A program made the translations under genes and the position numbers. DNA of 64,000 bases from assembly GCA_002841885.1 (NCBI GenBank), contig PHBE01000001.1, positions 248,001-312,000 on the forward strand, read 5' to 3'. A model generated the notes under the pieces. It made no database searches. It saw nothing but the letters and a program-made list of their open reading frames with translations, and was not told the DNA's origin. The DNA is from Deltaproteobacteria bacterium HGW-Deltaproteobacteria-18. Lineage in GTDB: Bacteria > Desulfobacterota > Desulfovibrionia > Desulfovibrionales > Desulfomicrobiaceae. Of this stretch, positions 25,857-34,945 are shown one piece after another (positions within the stretch are counted from its first letter, which is position 1; each line of letters starts with the position of its first letter).

Positions 25857-26543
25857 TCAGCCATGTGCCAACTTGGCCTGGCGTTCCAGCTCCATCTTGA
25901 AAGACGGATCCAAATTCATTTTGCGAGCCAGTTCATCCAGATAAGCACGCTCCATGAAATTTTCCTCGTCCACCATCAGCAGACTGGCCAGGTACATTTC
26001 GGCTGCAATCTCGGGAGTCGTGGCCGAAGTCGCGATTTCCGCAGGGTCCATGGGCTTGCGCAGTTCCTGGTCGACCCAGGACTGCAACTCCAGGTCACTG
26101 GTCAACTGCGCGATGCTCTGGTCGATCAATTGCCGTTCACGATCGTCGATATGGCCATCCGCCTTTGCGGCTGCGATAATGGCCCGCAGAACCGCCTTGC
26201 CATGAAATTCCGCCTCGGGAGCAGGAATCCTGTCGAGCGTACGGGGTTGCTGTACCTGGGTAGTGGAGGCGTTGTTCTGCTGCCAGGTGCTGAAAGCCTT
26301 GTAGGCCACCAGGCCTAGCGCCGCCAAGCCGCCGTATTTGAGAGCCGCTCCTCCCATCTTTCGCGCCTTTTTGCTGCCCATGAGCACACCTATTGTCCCG
26401 GCAGCCAAGGCGCCGCCTCCCGCACCCGTGAGCAGGGAACCCAGGGGATTCCCTTGGGCCGTTGCATTCCCCCGGTTTCCGGCATTTTGCAGTGCGCCCT
26501 GTCCTGACTGAAGCAACTGATCAAGAAGATTCATAATGCTCAT
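25857..26543 (-). CDS. DUF533 / TerB-like membrane-associated protein
   Basis: 228 aa. Glycine/alanine-rich N-terminal half (LGSLLTGAGGGALAAGTIGV, GGLAALGLVAYKAFSTWQQ) probably contains membrane-interacting segments. The C-terminal half (about 110-225) is TerB-like: VLRAIIAAAKADGHIDDRER, LASLLMVDEENFMERAYLDE. This is the DUF533 pattern. Function unknown; TerB domains in general are helical and acidic. AGGAG lies upstream of the start ATG. Stands alone between convergent and co-directional neighbours. Confidence 0.75.
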   Translation of the reverse strand: MSIMNLLDQLLQSGQGALQNAGNRGNATAQGNPLGSLLTGAGGGALAAGTIGVLMGSKKARKMGGAALKYGGLAALGLVAYKAFSTWQQNNASTTQVQQPRTLDRIPAPEAEFHGKAVLRAIIAAAKADGHIDDRERQLIDQSIAQLTSDLELQSWVDQELRKPMDPAEIATSATTPEIAAEMYLASLLMVDEENFMERAYLDELARKMNLDPSFKMELERQAKLAHG

Positions 26544-28193: not shown

Positions 28194-28256
28194 GAGAGTT
28201 TTCCGTGAGGTTTGTGTATGGGCTCAAGATTCGGGACAACATTTAAACGTTGCATA

Positions 28257-28280
28257 ATTCACGAAATATAATTCGTGAAT
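28257..28280. promoter_or_regulatory. Dyad-symmetric candidate operator
   Basis: ATTCACGAA (28257-28265) and TTCGTGAAT (28272-28280) form a perfect 9-bp inverted repeat with a 6-base AT spacer. It lies upstream of the minus-strand regulator gene and includes a TATATT-like -10 on that strand, as expected for autoregulation. It also lies upstream of the plus-strand riboswitch leader. Confidence 0.5.
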
Positions 28281-28488
28281 ACATGCTCGTTTTGCTCGGC
28301 ATATCCTGTCCTGTCAAGTTTGAATAAATCAACTCCAGACAACCAAAACCGGAATAACGGCGTTCTCTCAGGCCACTTTATCGGGACGAGTATCTTCCCG
28401 GCCCTGCTGTCTTTGCTGTTGACGAAATGTTGGCCGTGAAGAACGGAATAGCCATTGACGAATAGCCGCATAGAAAATAGATATCCGC

Positions 28489-28585
28489 CACAGAAGGGGA
28501 GTAACTCCCAGAGGCAAGGTCAACAATACTGGCGCGAAAGCGCTTGGCCCTGCCGTCGGAAACCACCGATGAGCCAGACCTTCAG
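28489..28585 (+). promoter_or_regulatory. Manganese riboswitch, yybP-ykoY class
   Basis: Matches the yybP-ykoY (Mn2+-sensing) consensus in order: AAGGGGAGTAA (28494-28504), GGTCAACAATACTGG (28518-28532), a GCGAAAGC apical hairpin (28533-28540), GGCCCTGCCG (28546-28555), a GAAA-containing loop, and TGAGCCAGACC (28570-28580). P1 forms from GAAGG (28493-28497) with CCTTC (28579-28583). The same CCTTC is part of the 5' arm of the terminator at 28576-28608, so aptamer closure and termination exclude each other: a transcriptional ON switch, as known for the class. Genes behind it: a small membrane protein and a CorC/HlyC-type protein. Confidence 0.88.
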
Positions 28586-28618
28586 CATGAAACACATGCT
28601 GAAGGTCTTTTTTTTTTT
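28576..28618 (+). terminator. Riboswitch expression-platform terminator
   Basis: Perfect 14-bp stem (28576-28589 with 28595-28608), loop AAACA, then an uninterrupted T tract to 28618. No gene on this strand ends nearby, and its 5' arm overlaps the aptamer's P1 strand, so it is a regulated terminator. Confidence 0.88.
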
Positions 28619-28684
28619 GCACCGCTCCGCGTGCCAAAACCCTGAACCACCTTGACGCCAAACGTTCACAGAGGAGACAATCAG

Positions 28685-29239
28685 ATGACCGAACCACGCC
28701 AAAAGCCTATTCAAAACCATTCCAGATCCAAGGCATCCAAACCAGGCAGTTGGGGGCGACGTATTCTCATGGCCCTGGCCTTGACCGGAATCATCGGAAC
28801 CGCTCTTGTCATCACCCTGACCGTACTTGCAGCGCGTTTCATCGGCGGCGCGGTCGACTATCTGCAATCCATGGACATGACGGCCCTGCAATCGCAACTT
28901 TCCGAGGCAGAACTGAAACTTGGCCAACACCAACAGGAAATCATCGAACCTCTTTTGGACAAGCTCAAAAGTGATCGACTGAGTCTCCCGCAGCGTGAGG
29001 AAATCGGGCGGACCATCATGGAAACTCTCAAACCGGAACAGCGCAAGCAAATCGAAGCGCTGAAAAACATCGAATCCGGCTGGCTTGACGAGATGATGGC
29101 ATCCTGGATGCTCAAATTGAAGGAATTGGGTGTACCCACAGGGCTGCCGGAGACAATTTTTCAGAAAAACTTGAACGTCACTCCCTCGAAAAGTGACCAT
29201 GTCAGACAAGATGTAAAAATCCACTTGTCAGGCAATTAA
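28685..29239 (+). CDS. Single-pass membrane protein of unknown function under the Mn riboswitch
   Basis: 184 aa. A basic N-terminal tail (residues 1-30) is followed by one membrane segment (ALALTGIIGTALVITLTVLA) and a mostly helical, charged C-terminal domain (about 60-165; MTALQSQLSEAELKLGQHQQ, LPQREEIGRTIMETLKPEQR). No known family recognised. Start at the ATG at 28685 behind GAGGAG; the frame is open to 28652. It is the first gene after the riboswitch terminator, so its expression should rise with Mn2+. Possibly a partner or regulator of the CorC-type protein downstream. Confidence 0.75.
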   Translation: MTEPRQKPIQNHSRSKASKPGSWGRRILMALALTGIIGTALVITLTVLAARFIGGAVDYLQSMDMTALQSQLSEAELKLGQHQQEIIEPLLDKLKSDRLSLPQREEIGRTIMETLKPEQRKQIEALKNIESGWLDEMMASWMLKLKELGVPTGLPETIFQKNLNVTPSKSDHVRQDVKIHLSGN

Positions 29240-29240
29240 A

Positions 29241-29510
29241 ATGATACAGGCAGGTCTTTTGATTTGTGGAGTAAAAATCATTGGTGCTGAATTGATTTTT
29301 CATGCGGATGCATCGGCTGTCTTGGGGCACTTGCATTTTTATGATATTGTCACTGAATATATATCTATGCGGCCAGCCCATCTAAAAAATATCTTCAAGA
29401 ATCGGACTTGGGAGCCGATTTTGGATTACGGACGTGCCCAGCTTTCGCTAAGACGGCGGTCTGTATCATCGAATGCAGATCTCCACTTGCCGGGCCAGGA
29501 CACCAAATAA
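29241..29510 (+). CDS. Doubtful small ORF between two riboswitch-controlled genes
   Basis: 89 codons filling the gap exactly between the preceding stop and the CorC-type gene, starting 1 bp after the stop. No ribosome binding site and no recognised family; the N-terminus is mildly hydrophobic. The close tiling is the only argument in favour. Confidence 0.2.
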   Translation: MIQAGLLICGVKIIGAELIFHADASAVLGHLHFYDIVTEYISMRPAHLKNIFKNRTWEPILDYGRAQLSLRRRSVSSNADLHLPGQDTK

Positions 29511-29526
29511 CTTCAGGAGAAAATGA

Positions 29527-30819
29527 ATGGATATCGCACTATTAGCAGCCCTCATCATACTCAACGGCATGTTCGCCATGTCTGAGATAGCCCTTGTGAC
29601 AGCACGAAAAAGCAGGCTTCAGCGACTTGTTGAAGACGGTGACGAATCCGCTGCTGTCGCCATGCGCCTGGGGGAAGATCCAACGCAGTTCCTGTCCACT
29701 GTCCAAATCGGAATCACCGCCATCGGCATCATGAACGGCATAGTCGGCGAATCTGCGCTGGCTGGTCCTCTTGCCGCCCTGCTCAACCAGTTTGGTCTTG
29801 ACGAACAAACCAGTTCGATAACTGCAACCACTCTTGTCGTAGTTGTAATCACATATTTTTCCATTGTTGTCGGCGAATTGGTGCCGAAAAGAATTGGCCA
29901 GTTCCATGCGGAGGACATCGCAACCTTCATGGCCAAACCTATCTCGGCACTGGCCACTGTGTCGCGCCCGTTTGTCCTCCTGCTCTCCGTTTCAACTGAC
30001 GGACTGTTACGACTCCTTGGAAAAAAGGAACTGAACAGCGCCAACCTTACTGAAGAAGATATTCACTCCATGCTGGCTGAAGGCTCGCAAGCAGGGCTGA
30101 TCGAGAAGCAGGAACACGAGATAATGCGTAATGTATTCCGGCTTGACGATCGTCAAATCGCCTCGCTGATGACTCCCCGCAGCGAAATTGTTTATCTGAA
30201 CATAGACGTACCTCTGGAAGACAGCCTGGAAAAACTGATGAATTCCGACCATTCCAGATATCCTGTTTGTCATGGCGGATTGCACGACACTCTTGGTATC
30301 ATCACTGCAAAAAGGCTGCTCAAGCAACGCATAAAAGGCGAATCAGGCAACATCGAGGATTATCTCCAGCCCGCCATTTTTGTACCGGAAACCCTTACAG
30401 GAATGAAATTGCTTGAACAGTTCCGAGAGTCGGGCGTGCAAATGGTTTTTGTCATAGACGAATACGGGGAAATACTTGGCCTCGTCACACTCCAGGATGT
30501 TCTTGAAGCTCTTGCAGGAGAATTCAGACCGCGCGATCCCGAGGACGTCTGGAGCGTTCAGCGTGAAGACGGATCATGGCTTCTCGATGGTCTGATACCA
30601 ATTCCGGAACTCAAGGATCGACTGAACCTCAAATCAGTACCCGAAGAGCACAAAGGAAGATACAACACCCTCAGCGGCATGATGATGTGGCTGATTGGCA
30701 GCGTTCCCCGCACGTGTGACGTCGCCGAGTGGGAGGACTGGAGACTTGAAGTCATCGATCTCGATGGAAACCGGGTCGACAAGGTTCTGGCCAGCAGGAT
30801 GAAGGATCCGGAGAGTTAA
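29527..30819 (+). CDS. CorC/HlyC-type (CNNM/DUF21-CBS) membrane protein
   Basis: 430 aa. DUF21 transmembrane domain (about 1-190; LNGMFAMSEIALVTARKSRL, VVVVITYFSIVVGELVPKRIG), a CBS pair (about 205-335; MTPRSEIVYLNIDVPLEDSL, MVFVIDEYGEILGLVTLQDV) and a C-terminal CorC_HlyC domain (about 350-430; DGSWLLDGLIPIPELKDRLN). Bacterial relatives are linked to Mg2+ and other divalent-cation export; the older name is hemolysin. AGGAG lies about 7 bases before the ATG. Its position behind a Mn2+ riboswitch suggests manganese export or tolerance here. Confidence 0.88.
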   Translation: MDIALLAALIILNGMFAMSEIALVTARKSRLQRLVEDGDESAAVAMRLGEDPTQFLSTVQIGITAIGIMNGIVGESALAGPLAALLNQFGLDEQTSSITATTLVVVVITYFSIVVGELVPKRIGQFHAEDIATFMAKPISALATVSRPFVLLLSVSTDGLLRLLGKKELNSANLTEEDIHSMLAEGSQAGLIEKQEHEIMRNVFRLDDRQIASLMTPRSEIVYLNIDVPLEDSLEKLMNSDHSRYPVCHGGLHDTLGIITAKRLLKQRIKGESGNIEDYLQPAIFVPETLTGMKLLEQFRESGVQMVFVIDEYGEILGLVTLQDVLEALAGEFRPRDPEDVWSVQREDGSWLLDGLIPIPELKDRLNLKSVPEEHKGRYNTLSGMMMWLIGSVPRTCDVAEWEDWRLEVIDLDGNRVDKVLASRMKDPES

Positions 30820-31022
30820 TTGAAATCTGGATCAACATCGAACAACTGCGGTAATCCTCAACCGTCATAATGGACCAAGGTCAGCACGGGTGAAGCGAAA
30901 AGGCTGCAAGTCATGTATCATGCAATTCAAATAGCTGATCAGCACGCAAGTAGCTACGAAAACGATACATGTTCGCCCGAGGCAAAATGTCTTACATCAA
31001 TTTCAAGGAGTTTTAATTCTAT

Positions 31023-31988
31023 ATGGCACTAGCTCTTATCGCCGTTATCTGTGGCCTTGTTCTTCTGGTGTGGAGCGCCGATCGTTTTGTCGAAGGCTCG
31101 GCCTCCAGCGCCCGACATTTCGGCATGCCGCCGCTTCTGATCGGCATGGTGATAGTCGGCTTCGGCACCTCCGCGCCCGAAATGGTGGTCTCGGCCCTGG
31201 CCGCCTTGCAGGGCAAGCCGGGAATTGCGCTTGGCAACGCCTACGGCTCGAACATCACCAACATCGCGCTGATCCTGGGTCTCACTGCGCTTATCAGCCC
31301 CATCGCCGTGCATTCGCGGGTTCTGCGCAAGGAGTTGCCCATTCTCGCGGCCGTGACCTTCATGGCGGCATGGCAGCTCTTCGATAGTGAAGTTACGCAG
31401 TTCGAAGCCGCGATGCTCCTTGCCGTGTTCGTCGGCCTGATGGCCTGGACGATATGGCAAGGGTTGCGGAACAAAGAGGATGCAATGGGAAGCGAGATGG
31501 AGCAGGAACTGGATGTCCACGCCATGCCTCTGCGACGAGCGATCTTCTGGATGCTGGCCGGGCTTGTGCTGCTCATCGTGAGCTCCCGCATCCTGGTTTG
31601 GGGAGCGGTTGAAATCGCCCACGGCTTTGGAGTCAGCGACCTGATCATCGGTCTGACCATAGTCGCAGTAGGCACCTCGCTCCCGGAACTGGCCTCTTCG
31701 ATCATTGCCGCCCGAAAAGGAGAGCATGACATTGCCCTTGGAAACATCCTGGGTTCCAACCTGTTCAACACCCTGGCGGTGGTGGGCATCGCCGGCATGA
31801 TCGGCCCCATGACCGTCGAGGCGGAGGTGTTCACCCGGGACATACTGGTCATGACCGCACTGACCCTGTTGCTGTTCGTCATCGGCTACGGCTTTCGGGG
31901 ACCGGGGCGCATCAATCGCGTCGAGGGAGCTTTGCTGCTGGCCTGCTACGCGGGCTACACGGCCTACCTGATCAGTACGGTTTTCTGA
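31023..31988 (+). CDS. CaCA-family Na+/Ca2+-type antiporter (YrbG-like)
   Basis: 321 aa, about ten membrane segments in two homologous halves. Each half has its alpha-repeat: VIVGFGTSAPEMVVSALAAL with GNAYGSNITNIALILG, and TIVAVGTSLPELASSIIAAR with GNILGSNLFNTLAVVG. These acidic and Asn residues form the cation sites. Substrate could be Ca2+ or Mn2+. AAGGAG lies 10 bases before the start. It is 203 bp after the CorC-type gene with no clear terminator between, so it may be part of the same regulated region. Confidence 0.88.
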   Translation: MALALIAVICGLVLLVWSADRFVEGSASSARHFGMPPLLIGMVIVGFGTSAPEMVVSALAALQGKPGIALGNAYGSNITNIALILGLTALISPIAVHSRVLRKELPILAAVTFMAAWQLFDSEVTQFEAAMLLAVFVGLMAWTIWQGLRNKEDAMGSEMEQELDVHAMPLRRAIFWMLAGLVLLIVSSRILVWGAVEIAHGFGVSDLIIGLTIVAVGTSLPELASSIIAARKGEHDIALGNILGSNLFNTLAVVGIAGMIGPMTVEAEVFTRDILVMTALTLLLFVIGYGFRGPGRINRVEGALLLACYAGYTAYLISTVF

Positions 31989-31999
31989 CAACAGTCATT

Positions 32000-32030
32000 G
32001 CCGACTTCCACCCCCTGCTTGGAAGTCGGC
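32000..32030 (+). terminator. Hairpin after the CaCA exchanger
   Basis: Perfect 11-bp stem GCCGACTTCCA (32000-32010) with TGGAAGTCGGC (32020-32030), 9-base loop, placed 12 bp after the exchanger stop codon and before the convergent ATPase gene. No T tract follows. Confidence 0.5.
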
Positions 32031-32215
32031 ACTGTGCACGAAAACCCGATACAATGCCGTTGCAAAACACAGTCTCGCATCGTCAATGATTATGAGCATG
32101 ATGAATGGCACGAATCAAATCGCTGGGCCTGAAACAGTGCGGCTTCATGTGCTTTTTCATTGGCATGTCAGACCACCTCGATTCAACCGGAACCAGAATC
32201 ACCGCGCAGGCTGCG

Positions 32216-34945
32216 TCAGGGAGCGCCATTGACCGCACCCCGCCGCCACCATTTCTCAAGGGAGATAACAGGTAGAACGCAAAATCCCGTCAGGATCGCC
32301 ACCAGCCAGGAACGCATGCCCAGTGCCACGGAGCCGAACAGGCTCTGCATGGGCGGCAGGTACATGAAGCAGAGGTGGAACAGCAGCAGAACGCCCGTAC
32401 TGACAAAGATGACGGGGTTGGAAAAGACGCCCTGGGCAAAGATGGACTCGCGCAGGGATCGGCAGTTGAGCAGGTAGAAGATCTGCGAGAACGTGACCAC
32501 GGTCACGCAGGTCGTCTGCGCCTCGGCCAGGGCGGCCGCGTGGACGGCTGCCGTGAGCGGCAGGTCGCCTATGATGCGGTAGTAATCCCAAAGGAAGAGC
32601 CCGCAGCCGCCGGCGGTCATGATCGTCGCGACAATGACAAGGCGGTAGAGGATGAACCACGAAAAGACCGGCTCATCCGGCGAGCGCGGCTGACGCTTCA
32701 TGGCGTTCGGTTCGAGGGGCTCGAAGGCCAGGGGCACCGAGAGGGTTATGCTGGCCACCAGGTTGATCCACAGAATCTGGATTGGCGACATGGCCATGAG
32801 CAGGACGCTCCTGCCGTCGACCGTGACCGTGGGGAAAAAGAACATGGCCACGCCCAGAATGGCGGCCAGGGCCAGGTTGGCAGGCAGAATGAAGGCCAGG
32901 GACTTGATCAGGTTGTCGTAGACCCGGCGCCCCTCCTCCACGGCCGCGGCAATGGAGGCGAAGTTGTCGTCCATGAGCACCACCTTGGCCGCCTCCTTGG
33001 AAACGGAGGTGCCGGTGATCCCCATGGCCACGCCGATGTCGGCCCGCTTCAGGGCCGGAGCGTCATTGACACCGTCGCCGGTCATGGCGACCACGTGTCC
33101 CATGGCCTGGAGCACTTCCACCAGGCGGAGCTTGTGCTCGGGGGCGACGCGGGCGAACACGTTGGTATTCCTGGCCGCATCCCGAAACTCTTCGTCGCTC
33201 AGCCCCTCCAGATCCCGGCCGCGCAGCGCCCTTGCCTCAGGCGCGAGCAGGCCCAGTTCCCGGCCGATGGCCTCGGCGGTCACGGGATGATCACCGGTGA
33301 TCATCTTTACGGTAATGCCGGCGCGGTGGCAGACGCGGATGGCGTCGATGGCTTCGCTGCGCGGCGGGTCGATCATGCCGGCCATGCCGACAAAGACGAA
33401 GCCGTCACGCTCTTCCCCTTCCTCCAGCCGATCCTCGGCCGCACCTTCCTTGCGGGCGAAAGCGATGAGCCGCATCCCCTGCCGGGCATATGTCTCGATG
33501 GCGTCGGCGACGCGCCCCCGACCCGCCTCGTCCAGGAGGCAGCGCTGCATGACCGTCTCGGGCGCGCCTTTCAGCAGAATCAGCGACTGGCCGTTCATGC
33601 GGTGCAGAGTGGCCATGAACTGGGTTTCCGACTCGAAGGGGATCACATCCAGACGCGGGAACTGCTCGCGCAGCCCCTCGGCGGCAAGGCCGCCCTTGCG
33701 GGCCGCCACCACCAGGGCCGCCTCGGTAGGGTCGCCGGTCGGGACCCAGACATGCCCGTCCTGACGTACGGAGGCATCATTGCACAGAACCGCCAGGGTC
33801 AGCATGTCCTTCAGACCCTGAGGCAGTTCCGCCAGATGCATGCCGTCATGCTCGATTTCGCCGACAGGGTTGTAGCCGACCCCGGAAAGGCGGTACCCGT
33901 GTCCATCCATCCAGGCCACCTGCACCGTCATTTCGTTGCGGGTCAGGGTGCCGGTCTTGTCGGAGCAGATGACCGAGGTGGCGCCCAGGGTCTCCACCGC
34001 CGGCAAATGCCGGACCACGGCGTGACGATTGGCCATGCGGCGGACGCCAATGGCCAGGGCGATGGTGATGACGGCCGGCAGGCCTTCGGGGATGGCCGCC
34101 ACCGCCAGGGCCACGGCGACCATCAGCGCATCGCCCAGGGAGGCGTTTTTGACGAGAACGCCGAAAGCGATGAAGATCGCCACGGCCACCACGACGGCAA
34201 CCGTAATGCCGGCGCTGACCTTGGCCAACTGCCGGGTCAGCGGCGTCTCCAGTTGCACCGTCTGACCGAGCATTTCATTGATGCGCCCCAGTTCGGTGGA
34301 ACTGCCTGTATGCACCACCACCCCCGTCGCCGTGCCCTGCATGACCATGGTACCGCTGTACGCCATGCACAGCCGATCCCCCAGGGGGGCATCCTCGGCG
34401 GCTGGCTCCGTGTGCTTGGCCGACGGCAGAGACTCGCCGGTCAAGGCCGCCTCCTCCACCAGAAAATTCTTGGTCCGGATCAGGCGCAGGTCCGCCGGCA
34501 CCCGGTCGCCGCTCTGCAGGGTCACCAGGTCGCCGGGAACCAGTTGCCGCGCAAGCACCGTCACAGGGGAACCCTCCCGCAGAACCGTCGTCGACTCGGG
34601 CACCATCGTCGCCAGTTCCTCGATGGCCTTGCCGGCCCGATACTCCTGGATGAAGCCGATGACTGAGTTTATGATGACCGCGCCGAAGACAACCGCCGCA
34701 TCCGTCGGCCGGTCCAGAAGCACGGCAATGCAGCCCGCGGCGATGAGCAGCCAGCCTATGGGGTTGTTCACCTGTCGCCAGAAGATGCGCCAGGGGCCCT
34801 CGCCGCCCTGTCGGGGCAGCTCGTTGGCGCCCACCGTCTTCAACCGGCGAGCCGCGTCCTCCCCGCCGAGGCCTGCGGGCGACGTTTCCAGGGCGGCCAG
34901 CACCGCTTCAGCCGAGCGCGCATGCCATGCCTGTTTCTCGAACAT
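32216..34945 (-). CDS. P-type cation-transporting ATPase (type II)
   Basis: 909 aa. N-terminal cation-ATPase domain, actuator motif LTGES, phosphorylation site SDKTGTLT, hinge MTGDGVNDAPALKRADIGVAMG, about ten membrane segments. M4 reads VAAIPEGLPAVITIALAIG, as in Ca2+/Mn2+ and Na+/K+-type pumps. M6 reads WINLVASITLSVPLAFEP, lacking the NxxTD of Ca2+ pumps, so the ion is uncertain. Located next to the CaCA exchanger and Mn-riboswitch genes but on the opposite strand with its own promoter. The DNA is G+C-rich relative to genes on its left. Confidence 0.88.
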   Translation of the reverse strand: MFEKQAWHARSAEAVLAALETSPAGLGGEDAARRLKTVGANELPRQGGEGPWRIFWRQVNNPIGWLLIAAGCIAVLLDRPTDAAVVFGAVIINSVIGFIQEYRAGKAIEELATMVPESTTVLREGSPVTVLARQLVPGDLVTLQSGDRVPADLRLIRTKNFLVEEAALTGESLPSAKHTEPAAEDAPLGDRLCMAYSGTMVMQGTATGVVVHTGSSTELGRINEMLGQTVQLETPLTRQLAKVSAGITVAVVVAVAIFIAFGVLVKNASLGDALMVAVALAVAAIPEGLPAVITIALAIGVRRMANRHAVVRHLPAVETLGATSVICSDKTGTLTRNEMTVQVAWMDGHGYRLSGVGYNPVGEIEHDGMHLAELPQGLKDMLTLAVLCNDASVRQDGHVWVPTGDPTEAALVVAARKGGLAAEGLREQFPRLDVIPFESETQFMATLHRMNGQSLILLKGAPETVMQRCLLDEAGRGRVADAIETYARQGMRLIAFARKEGAAEDRLEEGEERDGFVFVGMAGMIDPPRSEAIDAIRVCHRAGITVKMITGDHPVTAEAIGRELGLLAPEARALRGRDLEGLSDEEFRDAARNTNVFARVAPEHKLRLVEVLQAMGHVVAMTGDGVNDAPALKRADIGVAMGITGTSVSKEAAKVVLMDDNFASIAAAVEEGRRVYDNLIKSLAFILPANLALAAILGVAMFFFPTVTVDGRSVLLMAMSPIQILWINLVASITLSVPLAFEPLEPNAMKRQPRSPDEPVFSWFILYRLVIVATIMTAGGCGLFLWDYYRIIGDLPLTAAVHAAALAEAQTTCVTVVTFSQIFYLLNCRSLRESIFAQGVFSNPVIFVSTGVLLLFHLCFMYLPPMQSLFGSVALGMRSWLVAILTGFCVLPVISLEKWWRRGAVNGAP

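Follow-up and report, generated by a model that had tools for sequence, protein, structure and literature searches.

A probable yybP-ykoY manganese riboswitch and putative transcriptional ON switch ahead of a predicted cation-export operon in Desulfovibrionales

In the Lactococcus lactis yybP-ykoY switch, helix P1.1 competes with a transcription terminator, and stabilization of P1.1 by Mn2+ prevents termination (PMC11087558). TerC and UPF0016 are known Mn2+ exporter families (PMC13274385, PMC9334652), and a YrbG-type CaCA gene is listed under yybP-ykoY in Vibrio vulnificus as a prediction (PMC13274385). A survey that includes the Desulfovibrionales (PMC3766115) may already list some of the targets described here. 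In the 64-kb stretch of DNA that we analysed (the window), positions 28493-28618 very probably form a yybP-ykoY Mn2+ riboswitch that serves as the transcriptional ON switch of a predicted cation-export operon. The elements of the leader are as follows.

28455..28483, + strand: promoter-like site, TTGACG (28455-28460), 17-nt spacer, TAGATA (28478-28483)
28493..28583, + strand: yybP-ykoY (Mn2+) aptamer, 91 nt, three-way junction form without helix P2
28493..28497, + strand: P1.1 switch helix, 5' strand GAAGG, pairing with 28579-28583; compensatory changes phylum-wide
28498..28503, + strand: L1 loop GGAGTA, invariant in 20 aligned genus copies, counterpart of L1 in PMC6754395
28504..28507, + strand: P1.2, pairing with 28571-28574, supported by covariation
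28513-28522/28545-28554, + strand: P3A
28523-28530, + strand: L3 loop ACAATACT, aligned to ACA48UACU52 of Xanthomonas oryzae (PMC6754395)
28531-28535/28540-28544, + strand: P3B
28555..28570, + strand: P4, strands 28555-28559/28566-28570, supported by covariation
28576..28618, + strand: intrinsic terminator, 14-bp stem 28576-28589/28595-28608, loop 28590-28594, T-run 28609-28618

A preliminary description had placed the riboswitch at 28489-28618; the element itself was recovered, with the aptamer running from 28493 to 28583 rather than starting at 28489, and the conserved blocks follow one another on the + strand as had been described: GGGGAGTA (L1), TCAACAnnACT (L3), GATGAGC and AGACCTTC. Both the L1 GGGGAGUA block and the 3' AGACC block are present in the aptamer, and 28470-28620 folds with a stability 5.7 SD beyond that of shuffled sequences. 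The ACA at 28523-28525 matches ACA48 of X. oryzae, so that 28525 is the counterpart of the Mn2+-contacting adenosine. P1.1 is kept across the phylum by compensatory pairs (GAAGG/CCTTC, AAAGG/CCTTT, CAAGG/CCTTG); the first pair of P1.2 is an A-C mismatch in the window and G-C in most copies. This mismatch and the extra L3 nucleotide relative to the X. oryzae type could make affinity or selectivity differ. At the position following P1.2 (28575, aptamer position 83), the window shares a C with many of the genus copies linked to Tim44; most of those linked to TerC or CaCA have an A there. Helix P2 of the four-way junction is absent, a 5-nt linker standing in its place. A new structural class was considered on this account and dropped, since Escherichia coli alx also appears to be without P2 and a three-way form has been published (PMC9495176).

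At the Rfam gathering threshold, no match was found anywhere in the 64-kb window. The RF00080 search that the preliminary description had called for thus returned nothing over the 45-bit cut-off, and at a relaxed threshold a match at 28488-28632 (14.4 bits, E = 0.049). This outcome is close to the absence of a hit that the description had named as its refutation, a criterion that proves too strict. The same model gave the proven mntP switch of E. coli K-12 only 41.6 bits, again under the cut-off, and in Rfam release 15 did not list the alx switch of that genome at E = 0.01. Because proven members are rejected by it, the threshold is an annotation cut-off rather than a defining feature, and the low score of the window element is not a refutation; the gathering score was therefore rejected as sole yardstick. 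It follows that annotation with the current RF00080 model at its gathering score overlooks real members, those of E. coli included, and undercounts the class. Homology was established instead with two covariance models built without any gammaproteobacterial sequence, R1 from 20 distinct copies that DNA similarity had revealed in Desulfomicrobium and R2 from 72 copies, which score the window aptamer at 104.7 and 94.6 bits, respectively. Both recover the experimentally proven E. coli leaders (compared at L184:4462-4558 for mntP and L185:5377-5499 for alx): R1 finds the alx leader at 26.8 bits (E = 1.3e-5; the match stops 82 bases short of the alx start) and the mntP leader at 15.3 bits (E = 0.03), and R2 scores them at 38.5 and 33.5 bits.

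Near copies of the window riboswitch number 23, in 12 of 16 Desulfomicrobium genomes, and matches occur in 56 of the 199 genomes of the order and in 26 of 395 genomes sampled from the phylum. Across 72 aligned copies, 97.7% of cells are standard pairs and 23 of 29 pairs are changed on both sides, a result that is approached neither by any of 500 shuffles nor by any slid register. Since the alignment had been fitted to the model, these counts are biased towards the structure, but an earlier MAFFT alignment of 20 copies agrees with it. Helices P1, P3 and P4 are thus conserved by covariation. Together with the spread of copies across the phylum and the recovery of alx and mntP, this bears out the earlier assignment to the yybP-ykoY class. 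The source genome carries three copies: that of the window, one at C2:4506 preceding a Tim44-like gene, and a longer one at C2:53324-53494 (L001:1510-1626), which lies before htpX, has its own overlapping terminator and looks like it contains a P2 helix. Six other Desulfomicrobium genomes have comparable copies linked to htpX, which R2 scores at 25-35 bits.

Upstream of the aptamer, the TTGACR motif of the promoter-like site recurs at equal distance from the aligned + strand copies; a consensus promoter scan did not list the 28455-28483 site. Downstream, the terminator has a perfect 14-bp stem with a run of ten T behind it, and other terminator-like sites in 28200-32300 were no more frequent than expected by chance. 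As previously proposed, a P1 strand is common to aptamer and terminator: 28579-28583 sits inside the terminator 5' arm. A terminator overlapping the P1.1 3' strand was found, by a strict test, in at least 58 of 70 copies. With folding energies that leave out tertiary contacts and metal, the computed probability of P1.1 stays near 0.8 while the transcript grows to 28598 and has dropped to 0 by 28604, the terminator having taken over its 3' strand. In sequence and computed folding, the terminator and the ligand-stabilized helix exclude one another, as befits a transcriptional ON switch. Because this arrangement equals that of the L. lactis switch, an ON direction and Mn2+ as ligand appear likely by analogy; Mn2+ is also well supported as the presumed ligand by family membership and by the TerC and UPF0016 genes behind sister copies. 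At low Mn2+, the terminator (28576-28608) would capture the P1.1 3' strand (28579-28583) and RNA polymerase would halt at the T-run. At high Mn2+, the ion would sit between L1 and L3, dock the aptamer and stabilize P1.1, keeping the terminator from forming, so that transcription could proceed into the genes for the 184-aa protein and CNNM and, most likely, on to that for the CaCA exchanger. Such an operon would answer an excess of manganese by exporting cations, and its best candidate exporter is the CaCA exchanger. The reading frames behind the switch are as follows.

28685..29239, + strand: 184-aa protein with one likely membrane helix
29241..29510, + strand: 89-aa ORF, no family match and no relative seen
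29527..30819, + strand: CNNM/CorC-type membrane protein with CNNM, CBS and CorC_HlyC domains
31023..31988, + strand: CaCA-family exchanger, YrbG-like, over cut-off for TIGR00367 (calcium/sodium antiporter)

The gene order is thus 184-aa protein, CNNM, CaCA; the 89-aa ORF is probably not a gene. For the 184-aa protein, no Pfam or NCBIfam family was found, nothing in the genome, viral and plasmid collections searched, and weak chance-like matches only among PDB sequences; its relatives are confined to a related genome, G011 (68%), and, weakly, to G004, and the mean pLDDT of its predicted structure (47) is too low for a fold search. The CNNM/CorC-type protein has PaeA as its best NCBIfam match, below cut-off. 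In Bacillus subtilis, loss of a CorC-type Mg2+ exporter protects from Mn2+ (PMC9334652), for which reason an Mn2+-induced CNNM would, by analogy, be most sensible if it exported something other than Mg2+. The CaCA exchanger matches PF01699 at 235.5 bits in two stretches, corresponding to two Na_Ca_ex domains over cut-off. The source genome has one MntP gene, and neither TerC nor UPF0016 was found in it. A P-type ATPase gene at 32216-34945 on the − strand, convergent with the operon and nearest to the PMR1 (Ca2+) type though under the NCBIfam cut-off, was dropped as an effector because it lies on the opposite strand; the related gene in G011 follows a riboswitch copy and shares its strand.

The first genes behind 70 copies encode a Tim44-like protein (23), a 430-aa CaCA (17), UPF0016/GDT1 (14), TerC (9), a 320-aa CaCA (4), the 184-aa protein of the window (1) and others (2). 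The 430-aa type is counted as CaCA because of its weak sequence similarity to the window exchanger and its clustering with it, rather than from Pfam. Of the two others, L134 reads as a TerC gene, its frame running from the aptamer end, and L146 opens with a small protein that by eye resembles a zinc ribbon. Since TerC and UPF0016 are first genes behind copies, known Mn2+ exporters share this RNA. Among the first genes that follow the riboswitch in Desulfovibrionales, those for a Tim44-like protein of about 300 aa are the most frequent (L083-L118). The preliminary description had taken the effectors at this locus to be not the usual ones, which holds for CNNM and the 184-aa protein, found behind the switch in two genomes only (the source genome and G011), and does not hold for CaCA exchangers, which lie directly behind 21 of the 70 copies and, given also the V. 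vulnificus precedent, are no odd target; the type to which the window exchanger belongs is itself among those found immediately after other copies in the genus. In G011, the parts occur in the orders RNA-CaCA-CNNM, RNA-Tim44-short CNNM-CaCA, and RNA-truncated Tim44-184-aa relative-P-type ATPase. It is also worth noting that, in this genome, the CNNM gene about 1.1 kb behind one RNA (L100) appears to be without most of the membrane domain, and that the gene behind another copy (L101, G011:C7) resembles, by eye, a chimera of a Tim44-like N terminus and a DUF533 C terminus, the latter like that of window positions 25857-26543 (also by eye).

The riboswitch might be real and control the 184-aa gene and perhaps CNNM only, with CaCA read from its own promoter; the CaCA start lies 203 bases past the CNNM stop, and there is a weak promoter-like site at 30449-30476, near chance level. 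We consider this unlikely, as CaCA and CNNM follow riboswitch copies in other orders in G011, and in a tree the window CaCA falls among CaCA proteins of the genus that are linked to the riboswitch, outside the main group of those that are not, to which the other CaCA of the source genome belongs; one unlinked protein (G004) falls inside the window-CaCA clade, so that the riboswitch label needs two changes on the tree. An operon reaching the CaCA gene is most likely.

As for the ligand, the aptamer could be a form of yybP-ykoY that has been retuned to a divalent ion other than Mn2+, such as Ca2+ or Mg2+, which would fit a CNNM (Mg2+) and a CaCA (Ca2+) protein as targets. Such variants are likely to exist (PMC7266159), the mgtA aptamer of Streptococcus pneumoniae reportedly has a higher affinity for Ca2+ than for Mn2+ (PMC9495176), and genus copies share the extra L3 nucleotide. 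Nonetheless, the identical 8-nt L3 form precedes TerC in the genus, the metal-contacting adenosine is retained in all copies tabulated and the model also finds E. coli alx, leaving only a slim chance for retuning. A reading in which the element simply terminates transcription from the upstream region, or is an attenuator of an unrelated type, and resembles yybP-ykoY by chance would agree with the RF00080 score under the gathering cut-off and is extremely improbable, being already contradicted by covariation across the phylum, by recovery of the E. coli switches and by the TerC/UPF0016 link.

Under the Mn2+ riboswitch reading, an RNA of known ligand assigns a metal to transporters whose substrates would otherwise be guessed to be Ca2+ or Mg2+, pointing to CaCA exchangers, and perhaps CNNM proteins, as Mn2+ exporters in sulfate reducers, and tying two proteins of unclear role (Tim44-like and HtpX) to manganese stress. 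While the switch itself is ordinary, Tim44-like proteins and the HtpX protease are new as targets within the literature searched: no paper was found joining yybP-ykoY with Tim44 or a manganese riboswitch with htpX, and the few papers mentioning both yybP-ykoY and CorC showed no link in those examined, all three being weak as evidence of absence. It is possible, if somewhat speculative, that Desulfovibrionales have an enlarged Mn regulon in which several yybP-ykoY copies per genome co-induce HtpX, Tim44-like and CaCA/CNNM proteins, with CaCA exporting Mn2+ where TerC and UPF0016 are absent, as here; HtpX and the Tim44-like proteins would then act as membrane quality-control or assembly proteins.

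Among characterized systems, the L. lactis yoaB leader, a transcriptional ON switch, resembles the window element in its L1 GGGGAGUA, in an L3 with the Mn2+-contacting A, and in a P1.1 switch helix that shares its 3' strand with an intrinsic terminator; in contrast, the window element has no P2 (three-way junction) and precedes different genes. Compared with the L3 of X. oryzae (ACAUACU; PMC6754395), that of the window (ACAATACT) has one extra nucleotide after the Mn2+-contacting adenosine. E. coli alx carries GGGGAGUAAC, as does the window, whereas both alx and mntP differ from it outside the core and encode TerC- and MntP-family proteins. The S. pneumoniae mgtA Mn2+ riboswitch is likewise reported to be a three-way-junction yybP-ykoY aptamer (PMC9495176), but controls a P-type ATPase, while the P-type ATPase of the window lies outside the operon on the other strand. 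V. vulnificus yrbG is a RegPrecise prediction only, where a YrbG-type CaCA stands under yybP-ykoY as in the window (PMC13274385), CNNM and the 184-aa gene not being mentioned there.
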